NCBI GenBank assembly: GCA_025358515.1
Contig: JANYJG010000147.1
Location: 1 to 38,983, forward strand
Source: Chloroflexota bacterium
GTDB taxonomy: Bacteria > Chloroflexota > Limnocylindria > Limnocylindrales > CSP1-4
Length of the DNA stretch: 38,983 bases
Reading direction: 5' to 3'
Below are positions 31,985 through 36,718 of the stretch, in pieces. Position numbers and translations under genes: made by a program. The notes beneath the pieces are model-generated. The model made no database searches. It was not told the origin of the DNA and was given only the letters and a program-made list of their open reading frames with translations. How positions within the stretch are numbered: the stretch's first letter is position 1; each line of letters starts with the position of its first letter.

Positions 31985-32060
31985 GGCGACGTACCCAAGT
32001 GGTTAAGGGGGAGGTCTGCAAAACCTCTATTCAGCGGTTCGATCCCGCTCGTCGCCTCCA
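31985..32060 (+). tRNA. tRNA-Cys (GCA)
   Basis: A 76-nt tRNA. The acceptor GGCGACG pairs with CGTCGCC. The stem GAGGT/ACCTC encloses loop CTGCAAA, giving anticodon GCA. CCA is encoded. Confidence 0.95.
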
Positions 32061-32372
32061 AAATCCCTCTTGAATGGCCCCTCCGGGCCGCGCTGTGTCC
32101 CGGTCTGGTAGCAACGTGGTAGCAACAGGAGCCTATCCCGCCCCCTGATCGACGCCGTCGCGACCGTCGCCGGCTGGAGTAGGCTCCCAGCGGGGCTCGT
32201 CGAGGGCCGTCAGAGAGCGGTTTGGAGGCGACCAAGTTGGCAGAAGGAGCCACCGCGGCCGGGTCTCCGCCCTCCACCACAGAGTCGATGGTCCCGAGCC
32301 GCGGCCATCTGATTTCGCCGATCTTCGCCGATGCCACAGCAGGACCGCCGGGCGCGTTACGCTTATGTCGTT
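32061..32372. other. Gene-free stretch between tRNA-Cys and tRNA-Leu(TAA)
   Basis: 312 nt with no convincing coding sequence. It contains a short hairpin GGCCC/GGGCC (32086-32099), an 11-nt tandem repeat (32106-32126) and a -10-like TACGCT (32358-32363) positioned to start tRNA-Leu transcription. It resembles the scar of an integration next to tRNA-Cys. Confidence 0.5.
32106..32126 (+). repeat. 11-nt tandem repeat 46 nt after tRNA-Cys
   Basis: TGGTAGCAACG is followed directly by TGGTAGCAAC. It has the same layout as the repeat after tRNA-Leu(TAA): TGGYAGC, two bases, CG, then TGGYAGC again. This suggests a recombinase arm-type site. Confidence 0.6.
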
Positions 32373-32459
32373 GCCGGAGTGGCGGAACAGGCATACGCAG
32401 CGGACTTAAACTCCGCGGCCCGCAAGGGCATCAGGGTTCGAGCCCCTGCTCCGGCACCA
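32373..32459 (+). tRNA. tRNA-Leu (TAA)
   Basis: An 87-nt type II tRNA. The acceptor GCCGGAG pairs with CTCCGGC. The stem GCGGA/TCCGC encloses loop CTTAAAC, giving anticodon TAA. CCA is encoded. An integrase gene starts 165 nt downstream, so the 3' end is the likely attachment site of the adjoining element. Confidence 0.95.
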
Positions 32460-32485
32460 CAATTTGAGCGTGAAGTGGCGTGAAA

Positions 32486-32518
32486 CGAGCTCCTGAGCAT
32501 GCGACGGCCAGGAGCTCG
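32486..32518. repeat. 10-bp inverted repeat between tRNA-Leu(TAA) and the integrase gene
   Basis: CGAGCTCCTG at 32486-32495 is exactly complementary to CAGGAGCTCG at 32509-32518, with a 13-nt loop. It could terminate the tRNA transcript or belong to the attachment region. Confidence 0.6.
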
Positions 32519-32526
32519 AATTCGTT

Positions 32527-32548
32527 TGGCAGCTTCGTGGCAGCTTCG
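32527..32548 (+). repeat. Perfect 11-nt tandem repeat upstream of the integrase gene
   Basis: TGGCAGCTTCG is present twice with no gap (32527-32537, 32538-32548), 68 nt after tRNA-Leu(TAA). It is a candidate arm-type binding site of the neighbouring tyrosine recombinase. Confidence 0.65.
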
Positions 32549-32623: not shown

Positions 32624-33823
32624 GTGAGCCAGTCCAGCAAGCCGAGGCGGAGCGCCGGCGAGGGGGCGATCTACGAGACGGCGGATGGGCGGCTTCGTGG
32701 TTCCATCCTGCTCCCGCTTCCCGATGGCACCTCAAAGCGTGTCTACGTCAGCGGCCGAACGCGCGCCGAGATTACTCGGAAGTTCGACGCGAAGCGCAAG
32801 GAGAGCGACACCGGCGCGGTGACCGGAGAAGATCTCGGCGCCTACCTAGCCCGTTGGGTCGAGGCGTGCCGGCCACGGCTGCGCTCGTCTACGCATGTCG
32901 AGTACGCGCGCCACGTCTCGCAGTACTGGCTGGCTGGTAGCTTCGCGGCCAACCTGGCCAGACTGCCGTTGGCCTGACTGCAGCCCGTCGACGTCGAGCG
33001 ACGCATGAACGAGATGGTTGCACGTGGCCTCTCGCCGTCGACGGCCCGACACGCGCGGTCGATCTTGCGGCGGGCCCTGAACGACGCCATGCGTGAGGGG
33101 CTGCTCAATCGGAACGTGGCGGCCCTGGCAAGGCCACCGCGGGCGCCGCGCCGCGAGATGCGGGCCCTCTCCGCGTCGGAGGCGTCGCGGTTGCTGTCGG
33201 TGTCCGTAGATGAGCCTGCGGGGCCGCTGTACGCCATGGCGATCGCAACAGGCTGTCGACTCGGCGAACTGCTCGGGCTCTCATGGGACGACGTTGCGGA
33301 AGATGGCCGCTCGCTGGTCGTGCGTCGCTCTCTGGCCGAGTCCGGGCACACGCTGGATGCAAAGGGCGGCCGACACGTCACCTGGGCACTGGCCGAGCCC
33401 AAGACGGAGCGGAGCCGTAGGACGGTCATGCTGCCGGCCGTAGGGGTGGAGGCGCTTCGGCACCAGTAGGCCCGCCAGGCCGCCGCCACGCTCGCCGCGG
33501 GTTCGGCCTGGCAGGACCGTCACAACCTCATCTTCACCAACGTCGTCGGACAGCCGTTGAACCCCGAGAGCGTCTCTTCCGGCTTCCGCAAGATGGCCAC
33601 TCGACTCGGGCTCCAGCCGGTCCGTTTCCACGACCTTCGCCATACGGCCGCTAGCCTGCTCCTGGCAGCCGGCGTGCCCCTCAAGGTGGTGAGCGAGACG
33701 CTCGGCCACAGCTCGATCGCCATCACCGCCGACGTCTACCAGCACGTTACACCGGATCTTCGGCGCGAAGCTGCCGATGCGCTCGACCGGGCGCTTCCAG
33801 TGAAGCGTCATCTGAAAGACTGA
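32624..33823 (+). pseudogene. int: Phage-type tyrosine integrase, interrupted by two in-frame stop codons
   Basis: One 400-codon frame from GTG 32624 (GGAGGA 7 nt upstream) to TGA 33821 encodes a full-length integrase, but codon 118 is TGA (32975-32977) and codon 282 is TAG (33467-33469). The frame continues across both stops with uninterrupted homology and no frameshift. The N-terminal part has an arm-binding-type region and a SAM-like core-binding domain (GLSPSTARHARSILRRAL). The catalytic residues are all kept: Arg212 (TGCRLGE), His336 and Arg339 (HDLRHTAA), His362 (LGHSS) and Tyr372. The gene reads away from tRNA-Leu(TAA), the presumed target. It is best read as a recently inactivated integrase; readthrough or a sequencing/assembly artefact are alternatives. 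Confidence 0.85.
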
Positions 33824-33852: not shown

Positions 33853-34239
33853 TCACTCCCGGCCCGACGCGACCTCGCCGATGGCCGAGGACGGAACCAA
33901 TCGTCGCCGGCCGACCTTGACGCTCCGGATGCGTCCTGCCCCGATTTCAGAATAGAGGGCGGTCCGACCGATGCCGAGAGCCCGGGCGGCCTGCTCGATG
34001 CTCAGCAGCTGGTCGGGTTTCCGCTCGCTCGGCGGACGCTCGGCGGCAAACTCATCTCGGAGCGCAGCCACAAGCTCCGTCACGGCCGTCGTGAGCCGGT
34101 CGCTCATCGGACCACGGGCGTTCGACGGCACGACGGGCAGGAGCATCGACCTGATGATCTGGCCTCCGCCTCGTAACGACTGCCGCCCGGATTGGCGCTC
34201 CCGTTCGGATCCAGGCTTGCGCATTGGCAACTCGTTCAT
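33853..34239 (-). CDS. Helix-turn-helix protein, excisionase-like
   Basis: A 128-residue protein whose C-terminal 55 residues form a MerR/excisionase-type winged helix (LLSIEQAARALGIGRTALYSEIGAGRIRSV ending in VGRRRLVP, here described in two parts: the helix-turn-helix, then the wing). The long start ATG 34239 is chosen because it overlaps the replication gene's stop codon by 4 nt (ATGA). An internal ATG at 34107 would give an 84-residue protein containing only the conserved part. In actinomycete integrative elements a small xis gene sits between rep and int, and this gene occupies that place. It should direct excision or repress the module. It is convergent with the integrase pseudogene, whose end is 29 nt away. 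Confidence 0.75.
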   Translation of the reverse strand: MNELPMRKPGSERERQSGRQSLRGGGQIIRSMLLPVVPSNARGPMSDRLTTAVTELVAALRDEFAAERPPSERKPDQLLSIEQAARALGIGRTALYSEIGAGRIRSVKVGRRRLVPSSAIGEVASGRE

Positions 34240-35690
34240 GGCGCCGACCGATGCCGGTGCCAGTGGCGTGCGGTGCTCGTCGACACATTCCGCTTATGAG
34301 CCGACCCGGCAGAACCGAAAGACTCCAAACCATCCGGCGAGGAGGCGCTTCCACGGAAGCTCGAGGCCACGGCCCGCTCAGCCGGAGATAGGCCAGATCC
34401 GGCGTAGCGGAAGCTCCGTCGGATGACGACCTGGTCGCCTATGCCCTTGGCCCTGATCTGGGCGAGCCAGGGATCGGCCTGGGCTCGATACTCGGCCCGG
34501 ACGCCGCGCAACGCCGCGAAGGTCACCGAGTAGCGACGGGCCTTGGTCAAGAAGTGGCCGCGGAAGCCGAGGCTATGGGCCCAACGTGGGCTCAGCATCC
34601 AGGCCAACCGCATCAGCGCTCGCGCGTGGTCGGACAGGTCCGCTCGCTCGATCACTCCCTTGACGCGGATTCGGCGATCGAGGCCGCCGCCAACGCCTGC
34701 GTCCTTGGTTGCGTACTTTGCTAGGTACCCTGCGACTGCGACACGATCTGCGTCGCCGACGCTGGTGTTGCGCGGGATGGGCCTGACGTCGATCTGTACG
34801 CCCCAACGGACGATCAGCTCACGACCGTCGGGTCCTACCACCGTGACCGCTACTCGCGCCGCGGTGCGGGCGACGGCCTCCGCTAGACGCTGCGCCGTCG
34901 CTCCGCCCGCCGGCGCGGTGTCGGGACCGTCCGGTCCGTCAAGCCGGATGACCGCATGGACGTGCACGGCACCGCGGGCCTGGAATTCCGCGACCTTCGC
35001 CTAGGCGACGCGGACCCTGGTGCGCAACGCTGCGACGCTAAGTCCGCTCAGGGCGGCGAGCTCGCGTGGCAGGTACGTGATTGTTCGGCGCCACAGGGCG
35101 CCGAGGTTCGCGTTCCAGAGGGCCGCAGTTTCGTAGTCGTAGCAGTCTGGGCAGAGCGCCTGCCCGATCCGGGGATCGTCGCCGGCGTGCCGCTCGAGAC
35201 AGCGCGTCGGGATGCCGTGTTCGCATTCCTGCGGTTGACCACTGACCCGGCAACGGCGCACCTCACCAGCATCGACCACACGGCGATGGACCGCGCCGAA
35301 CGATGGTGCGGTGAAAGTCGCGAACACGAGTGGATGCGAGCCGACCGATGCTGACACGCCTCGGGCCTCGTTGCCAGAAAGGCCAGCCGTGACGAGGAAG
35401 TAGGCATCGCGACGGTAGCGTTCCGAGCAGGGAGGACACCGCGTCTCGCGTCGATTGCCACAGGCGACGAGCACGAAGCCTGGCGCTTGTGCTCTCGTCG
35501 ACCGCCGAGCCACGACCGCTCCTGAGTGTGCCGAGACGGCGACCGACTCACCTTCGAGGCGGATCGGCGAGGTGCAGCCGCCGGTGCGCCTGATCAACTC
35601 GACGACGGCCGGCGCGCCAGCGCCGTAGCGGCGCGTGAGCACCGCCAGGGACGCCGGCTGAGACGCGGGCCGAGACGCAGCGACCAGCAC
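34236..35690 (-). pseudogene. RepSA-like replication initiator (HUH type), interrupted by one in-frame TAG
   Basis: A 485-codon frame from GTG 35690 to TGA 34236 is broken only by TAG at 35003-35001 (codon 230). The two halves read as one protein: cysteine pairs in the first half (CGNRRETRCPPC, CEHGIPTRC, CPDCYDYETA), then, after the TAG, AKVAEFQARG, the HUH metal-binding motif (His243, His245 in HVHAVIRLDG) and GYLAKYATK with candidate catalytic tyrosines Tyr322 and Tyr326. This is the replication initiator family of actinomycete integrative elements and plasmids such as pSAM2. In relatives the position before AKVAEFQ is often Tyr, so a TAC or TAT to TAG change is likely. The gene overlaps the HTH gene by 4 nt and follows the Pra-like gene after 10 nt. 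Confidence 0.8.
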
Positions 35691-35700
35691 CGCTATTTCC

Positions 35701-36126
35701 TCAGGCGCCCTGCTCGGGGCGATGGAGGGGCTGCGGGACCTGCGCCTTTGGGGACGCGCCTCGAACCGCCGTAGCCCGGAATGCCCAGGCCAGGCGCGGC
35801 CGAGAGCCCGAAGCGTCGACGTATGGCGTTGCCGTCAGTCCCTCGAAGGCGACCGACGGAAACGGCGAACCCGCAGCCGCCGGCGGCAACGTCGGCGGGT
35901 TGCGAGCCGAAATCTTGACCCGCACGACCTTGCTTCGCGCCTCCGGGTCGGCGTCGAAGACCGAGATCGCCCACGTCGGCAGCCCCGAGTCTCGATCGTG
36001 CGCCTGGACCTTCTGCTCACGGGTCGAGGCCTCGAAGTCGACGACCTGCTCTACGGCGCCAACGGCGTATGCCCCTGCCGGGAACACCAGCTCGTTGGTG
36101 ATTGGAATGTGCCTGCTAAGTGCCAT
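35701..36126 (-). CDS. Plasmid replication/integration/excision activator, Pra-like
   Basis: A 141-residue protein starting at ATG 36126, with AGGAGA about 8 nt upstream. It carries the blocks typical of the activator protein found beside RepSA-type initiators: FPAGAYAVGAVEQVVDFEAS, STREQKVQAHDRDSGLPTW, VFDADPEARSKVVRVKIS, and FEGLTATPYVD followed by RPRLAWAFRA. In pSAM2 the Pra protein switches on the rep-xis-int genes. Here the gene is first in a pra-rep-xis order on the minus strand, which supports that role by context. It is intact, unlike the rep gene. The family match is from memory and firm at the level of the sequence blocks. Confidence 0.8.
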   Translation of the reverse strand: MALSRHIPITNELVFPAGAYAVGAVEQVVDFEASTREQKVQAHDRDSGLPTWAISVFDADPEARSKVVRVKISARNPPTLPPAAAGSPFPSVAFEGLTATPYVDASGSRPRLAWAFRATAVRGASPKAQVPQPLHRPEQGA

Positions 36127-36718
36127 GTCATGTTCTCCTATCTGATTTGGACAGCCGGAATCAGCCGACGCTTTGCTCACAGCTATCGCCGTTAAGAGCT
36201 CGCGTAGGGGGCTCCGGAAAGTGGGGGCGAGCCCTCTCTTTTGGTCCGGAATGCCTTACCGGGACCTGGGCCAGTCGCCACACAAGACGCTAGGCCGACC
36301 AACCGGTAGAGTCAAGGTTTTCTGCGTACCATCGTGCGTACCAAATTCGCCGGAATCCGCTGGCGCGACCGTCAGCCTGTGTGAAAACGGCAGTCCTGAG
36401 CTCGGACGACGTCTGGGATCGCGGACTCAACCGCGGCCAGCCATGTGGTCGGTGCGATGGAAGCGTTCTCGAGGGACTTCGCTTTGATCGCTGCGACCGG
36501 CGAGTATGGCCCGATGCACGGGGTCATCGGGCGGGTTCGCCTCTTATCGCCGCGATCCGCTCTTGGGAACCTACCGAGAGGGCGGGCTGGTGATCATATC
36601 AGCGCAGTCGAGAGCGTACGCAGGCTTGACCCGAACCTTGGTTGGCTGAACCTCGGACGCCGCTTGTTACAACTTTCTCTACTGCATCAAAGGCGGTATG
36701 TGACCGCGCACGGTGGAT
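36127..36718. other. Gene-poor stretch upstream of the Pra-like gene
   Basis: About 590 nt with no convincing coding sequence on either strand. It holds a 9-bp stem with one G-T pair (36206-36214 with 36229-36237) followed by CTTTT on the plus strand, and a near-tandem repeat of TGCGTACCA (36323-36331 and 36335-36343). It probably contains the promoter of the pra-rep-xis module and/or the far border of the element. Confidence 0.4.
36323..36343 (+). repeat. TGCGTACCA direct repeat
   Basis: TGCGTACCA occurs at 36323-36331 and 36335-36343 with a 12-nt period. It recalls the tandem repeats next to tRNA-Cys and tRNA-Leu(TAA) but with a different core, so its relation to them is uncertain. Confidence 0.45.

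Follow-up and report, generated by a model that had tools for sequence, protein, structure and literature searches.

Predicted integrase arm sites behind two tRNA genes of a Chloroflexota genome: a decayed resident element and the probable remnant of a lost one

Two neighboring tRNA genes of a Chloroflexota genome, tRNA-Cys and tRNA-Leu(TAA), are each followed by a short direct repeat with an 11-nt period. Both pairs are very probably the left (P) arms of tRNA-targeting integrases: the element at tRNA-Leu is still present, although decayed, while the one at tRNA-Cys would have been lost. The window analyzed here, a stretch of 38,983 nt, is the entire contig C28 of genome G000 (genomes, contigs and loci are designated G, C and L throughout); the genomes compared with it are drafts in many contigs. 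Coordinates of the features in the window are collected in Table 1.

A preliminary description of the window had placed 11-nt repeat pairs behind both tRNA genes, and this was confirmed to the nucleotide: the TGGTAGCAAC pair begins 46 nt 3' of tRNA-Cys and the TGGCAGCTTCG pair 68 nt 3' of tRNA-Leu(TAA). Both pairs are real and not products of chance. The window contains five exact tandem pairs (10 nt identical, period 9–13), compared with 0–3 (mean 0.6) in each of 20 dinucleotide shuffles, and TGGTAGCAAC and TGGCAGCTTCG are the only exact tandem pairs lying within 150 nt downstream of its eight tRNA genes. Two copies of the joint exact pattern TGGYAGCNNCGTGGYAGC exist in the 2.78-Mb genome of origin, at these two loci, while the reversed-pattern control does not occur; it was found in six of 61 genomes, all six from this genus, with no control matches. 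Specificity can be claimed only for the exact pattern, since a one-mismatch search gave as many control matches as matches and was dropped as uninformative. The preliminary description also drew a parallel layout in which a short inverted repeat separates each tRNA gene from its tandem pair. This stands for tRNA-Leu, where the hairpin folds better than shuffled sequence and G019 has a base-paired variant of it; the inverted repeat behind tRNA-Cys is indistinguishable from shuffled sequence in its folding (z −0.3), a chance-level value that weakens the Cys half of the layout, and the common inverted repeat was rejected there.

Table 1. Features of the window discussed in the text
Feature	Position	Strand	Remarks
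tRNA-Cys(GCA), putative target of lost element	31985-32060	+	ARAGORN; in relatives the 3'-terminal 45 nt are duplicated as the core
Predicted left-end remnant of tRNA-Cys element	32065-32129	+	blastn to G007 left end, 79% over 66 columns
P-arm-type pair (putative fossil), TGGTAGCAAC x2	32106-32115 + 32117-32126	+	period 11; GGYAGCAAC dialect
tRNA-Leu(TAA), intact at attL	32373-32459	+	
Core common to attL and attR, 55 nt	32405-32459	+	100% over 55 nt
Inverted repeat/hairpin between core and arms, tRNA-Leu side	32486-32518	+	fold z −2.9 vs shuffles
P-arm-type pair of resident element, TGGCAGCTTCG x2	32527-32537 + 32538-32548	+	period 11
Tyrosine integrase pseudogene (int)	32624-33823	+	in-frame TGA at 32975, TAG at 33467; predicted N-terminal arm-binding domain, residues 1-68
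Excisionase-like HTH protein (xis)	33853-34239	-	HTH_17; G011 orthologue matches TIGR01764 excise
RepSA, pSAM2-type rolling-circle initiator, broken	34236-35690	-	TAG at 35001-35003; PF20199 in both halves
Pra-like activator	35701-36180	-	SCO3933 family match below cut-off
TGCGTACCA pair (also written TGCGTACCATC)	36323 + 36335, to 36343	+	period 12; candidate operator or iteron
RHS gene, C-terminal part, cut by contig end	37653-38983	-	

The tRNA-Leu(TAA) locus, taken in the preliminary description for the scar of a past integration, is instead an occupied site, with attL and the genes int-xis-repSA-pra in the window and attR on another contig of the same genome, C170. An exact 55-nt copy of the tRNA-Leu 3' part is found at G000:C170:100268-100322(-); the preliminary description had expected such a copy further to the right on the same contig, and it exists, but on C170. 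In G012 and G002 the left flank of attL (from C28) and the right flank of attR (from C170) lie on one contig with their order kept, and G005 also has both flanks on one contig, the left part beginning only at the tRNA-Phe group; no match to either half of the element was found in these three genomes. The exact attR copy and the contiguous flanks in G012 and G002 show that the locus carries an insertion whose borders are divided between two contigs, attL on C28 and attR on C170. A tRNA-targeted integrative element is recognized by a tRNA 3' end repeated directly at its two borders and by relatives in which the site is unbroken, and the locus shows both. No sequence overlap was found between the ends of C28 and C170.

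The genes of the element are recognizable but partly broken. PF00589 (Phage_integrase) is present in the last segment of the window int and in its G019 orthologue, and the catalytic residues R212, K260, H336, R339, H362 and Y372 are invariant or nearly so in the integrase alignment, identifying a tyrosine recombinase whose window copy is interrupted by two stops. Comparison with the intact G019 Int (96% identical) shows 79 synonymous and 17 other codon differences, both stops included, which suggests that int was lost recently. PF20199 matches the two halves of RepSA with E-values of 1.7e-68 and 1.4e-49, the type of replication module found in actinomycete integrative and conjugative elements (AICEs); RepSA scores above the family cut-off in five of 400 sampled genomes of the phylum, four of them from this genus. 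The G011 orthologue of the Pra-like gene shares 40% identity with a Streptomyces protein annotated as “plasmid replication, integration and excision activator”. At the other end of the element, an N-terminal RHS gene with PKD and DUF11 domains (G000:C170:100964-105686) starts just inside attR; the RHS pieces on the two contigs are probably cargo and possibly a single large gene split by the assembly gap. No FtsK/SpoIIIE-type transfer gene, the Tra component of AICEs, was found in the assembled parts of the element, on either side of the C28–C170 gap. PF01580 gave 12 matches in eight genomes, none on element-bearing contigs except one on G000:C170 (28234-28800), ~70 kb outside the element.

Because int carries two stops and rep one, the element is probably immobile. 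Movement in trans by the intact integrase of a related element would be conceivable, as the core and both arms are intact, the G019 enzyme is nearly identical and the codon differences point to recent stops; against this, no other integrase was found in the element's own genome at E<=1e-40 and rep is broken as well, and we regard continued mobility as unlikely.

The preliminary description noted a third pair of similar period and proposed that it might mark another border. The pair exists, with a period of 12 rather than 11 nt, but its proposed role as a border was ruled out: the element extends beyond it, and the pair, which lies inside and upstream of the Pra-like gene at a distance of 143 nt, is conserved in other elements, the exact TGCGTACCA pair recurring in L095 and L153 and its second unit being changed in L021 and L100. 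It is likely an operator or a replication iteron.

The reading of the two tRNA-flanking pairs as arm sites draws on the integrase family to which the window gene belongs. Relatives were picked by protein similarity alone and were present in 33 of 151 genomes of the class at E<=1e-40. The region preceding int was long enough to be scored at 31 loci (a 32nd, L130, was left out for its short upstream region); 17 of them have two GGYAGC units 11–13 nt apart upstream of int, where 0.016 would be expected from shuffles. These 17 loci follow tRNA genes for Leu(TAA), Cys, Ile, Tyr, Leu(CAA) and Ser. The pair was found at none of 42 distant viral-contig integrases (27–41% identity; 42 of 80 listed loci examined). 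A motif-first search of 177 genomes was noisy, with 57 matches against 25 for the reversed control; among the 30 matches with a fetched locus, 14 were att-like by set criteria, eight having a tRNA gene just upstream and six a tRNA-like T-loop at attR distance. Of the IMG/VR pattern matches L267–L270, only L270 had a tRNA-like T-loop or integrase nearby.

The repeat units fall into three dialects that follow the integrase phylogeny. The tree contains GGCAGCTTC in seven rows, GGYAGCAAC in 12, other GGTAGC forms in three and no pair in seven; these classes, which were assigned by hand, require three changes, the minimum for four groups, and none of 200 shuffles scored as low, near-copies among the rows helping the score. 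L107 and L108 were placed in the TTC class despite one unit or base being changed. The 29 rows represent 28 distinct proteins (L106 and L134 are the same), and the tree omits L103 (the same protein as L133), L104 (the window, read-through), L127, L128, L130, L131, L135 and L136. Dialects recur at the far end: P' pairs are present at all six Leu-type attR sites of the TTC dialect (G000, G013, G015, G006, G001 and G011). In the first four the pair reads TGGCAGCTTCG-Y-TGGCATCTTCG at −115/−103 from the core; in G001 one base is changed and the pair lies at −117/−105, the core match beginning two bases later, and G011 has the same Leu-type P' pair upstream of its core. Arm sites that flank the core in a fixed geometry and vary with the integrase are as would be expected of a hetero-bivalent integrase. 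The 11-nt pairs are thus most likely arm-type sites of related tyrosine integrases, as the preliminary description had proposed; they may also resemble the DR2 arm repeat of Tn916. Chance duplication or a metagenome-assembly artefact might be suspected, the source genome being a draft in 264 contigs of which 5.82% is rated as contamination, but the shuffles of the window and of the int loci, the recurrence of these repeats in further members of the genus and the synteny of both flanks with relatives leave such an origin scarcely credible.

The tRNA-Cys site presents the same arrangement without the element. A tRNA-Cys query matched 17 of 21 genomes of the genus, 14 near full length. Five of these 14 (G007, G016, G019, G011 and the window) have a YGGTAGCAAC pair 45–47 nt behind the gene, with int directly following in all but the window; no pair accompanies the remaining nine. 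The 45-nt tRNA-Cys 3' end is present as a further copy (attR) in G007, G016, G019, G017 and G011, and every such copy is accompanied by a GGTAGCAA(C/T) pair at −116 to −102. No tRNA-Cys attR was found in G000, and the best candidates for a second Cys core copy in the window and the fetched part of C170 matched 23 and 25 of 45 positions, which amounts to none. The window spacer matches the G007 left end at spacer positions 5–69 only, homology stopping right after the repeats, and those repeats bear the dialect of an integrase clade other than that of the tRNA-Leu element. In the simplest reading, a Cys element was formerly present and would have been deleted from just behind the P arm through attR. 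An earlier, different element at tRNA-Cys, now lost, had been suggested in the preliminary description; the other-clade dialect and the int-bearing Cys loci of four relatives support it. The flank might instead have been imported by homologous recombination from a neighbor carrying a G007-like element, with no local insertion and decay, and the homology to G007 is indeed only ~65 nt long at 79%, while the loss of any Cys attR makes the route unreadable. However, the arms are present only at the left end, four relatives hold this left end together with int at the same tRNA, and deletion after insertion takes one step fewer, so import appears improbable.

Similar remnants may exist elsewhere. 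In G009 (L254, G009:C10) and G015 (L251, G015:C24), GGTAGCAAC pairs lie at tRNA-Ser(TGA), near position 1500 of each locus; the stretches read, ~1.5 kb and 0.8 kb long, contained no integrase, and none of this kind was found in either genome at E<=1e-40. Repeats behind tRNA genes of genomes that never carried an integrase had been named in the preliminary description as evidence against its reading, and these two loci, with repeats beside a tRNA gene and no integrase, come closest to that case; the two pairs may be further decayed left ends. They would also suit the proposal that the repeats are native features of tRNA flanks, such as processing or termination signals, with no role in recombination. 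This proposal is already contradicted by the nine near-full-length tRNA-Cys matches of the genus that have no repeats, by the repeats tracking the integrase phylogeny and not the tRNA, and by their recurrence at the far end of the element, and we consider it very improbable.

G003 has a right end of a third dialect behind tRNA-Leu and no P pair near its tRNA. At one tRNA gene, elements appear to be stacked: in G019:C84 (L020), a third-dialect right end (P') is joined to a TTC left end (P) through one core, and the right part resembles a terminase-bearing element of G008. An interpretation as circular attP was abandoned, the mixed dialects and the G008-like right part pointing to a tandem junction; two different elements stacked at one tRNA are the more likely arrangement, and RepSA and terminase then need not share one element. 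The positions concerned in this two-element junction at a tRNA-Leu core are L020 2232-2289 and 4344-5900, the right-hand element having a terminase large subunit (phrog_2, E 1.2e-33), as in G008:C85; no capsid genes were recognized among the scanned proteins of this terminase element type. Separately, G011:C41:528-5325 and G009:C216:245-4558 each contain three GGTAGCAAC pairs within ~5 kb, perhaps stacked elements or remnants. Another decayed copy is seen at L089 (G001:C81; 1033-1446), a Leu-type element whose integrase is reduced to an N-terminal fragment, within an ORF of 137 aa, with a sigma-factor gene further on.

The part of the integrase expected to read the arms was examined in the intact G019 Int. 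Its AlphaFold model (mean pLDDT 89.9 over the whole protein) has an N-terminal domain followed by core-binding and catalytic domains, with three strands and a helix at residues 15–62, and the same elements appear when the N-terminal domain is modeled alone. The best solved match for the rest of the protein is Tn1549 Int (Z 24.8, rmsd 2.8, 298 residues). When the N-terminal domain was searched by itself, no fold match reached significance; the arm-binding domain of HAI7 integrase (3ju0) came up at only Z 4.5 (rmsd 2.9, 59 aligned), among unrelated rows. Pfam arm-domain matches are weak (AP2 in six of 32, Arm-DNA-bind_4 in two and Arm-DNA-bind_3 in one), and the window's own integrase sequence has none.

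These data have led us to propose a model in which each pair provides two high-affinity sites, one helical turn apart, that would be bound by the integrase N-terminal domain; the opposite arm (P') carries a comparable pair at distances of ~115 and 103 bp to the core. Engaging arms and core at the same time, on DNA that is presumably bent, integrase would act together with Xis to insert the element into the 3' half of the tRNA gene or to remove it from there. At tRNA-Cys the left end alone would survive, in the dialect of a different integrase clade. Since dialect follows integrase clade, an int-less pair behind a tRNA would reveal the lineage of its former element. It is possible, though we put it no higher than a tentative proposal, that arm dialects form a fossil record of past elements and that the elements bearing them represent a type not described before, found in Chloroflexota, with a pSAM2-like replication module, a reversed int, no known transfer gene and unrelated elements stacked at one tRNA. 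Arm-site pairs can persist after the integrase itself has gone and point to the type of element that a site has lost. The agreement of dialect with clade offers a ready set for studying DNA readout by the N-terminal domain, and pSAM2-type RepSA elements are now placed in a Chloroflexota genus.

Several of these features have counterparts in known systems. Pairs of 11-bp arm sites have already been described in Cluster K mycobacteriophages (PMC3203893), where, as here, they flank a tRNA- or tmRNA-derived core, the N-terminus of Int is predicted to recognize them, core and arm are separated by a stem-loop, and changes in the sites are paired with changes in the N-terminus. The sequences and hosts differ, decayed int-less left ends are seen in the Chloroflexota, and all pairs of the Chloroflexota family are direct, unlike the inverted P3/P4 of CrimD (PMC3203893). 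With pSAM2 and other AICEs the element shares a tyrosine integrase, an excisionase, RepSA, a Pra-like gene and insertion into a tRNA gene (PMC3218068). In pSAM2, int, xis and repSA form one operon, whereas in the window int starts near the core and lies on the strand opposite rep and xis, and no FtsK/SpoIIIE transfer gene was found in the assembled parts of the Chloroflexota element. Such AICEs were reported only from Actinomycetales (PMC3218068), while the present host genus, which includes contig G019:C84 (PLOC01000019.1), belongs to the Chloroflexota; a literature search, with subscription journals mostly outside it, returned nothing on pSAM2-type integrative and conjugative elements in Chloroflexi or on RepSA in Chloroflexota. 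The IntTn916 subgroup of tyrosine recombinases with arm-binding domains includes the pSAM2 cluster, and Tn916-type arm-binding domains have a strand-strand-strand-helix layout (PMC8138268), which is also predicted for the N-terminal domain here, the rest best matching Tn1549 Int. Unlike Tn916 and Tn1549, whose choice of site is not strict (PMC8138268), the Chloroflexota integrases target tRNA genes. While 11-bp arm pairs themselves are precedented, the integrase family, its host, the match between dialect and clade and the int-less remnants are new.
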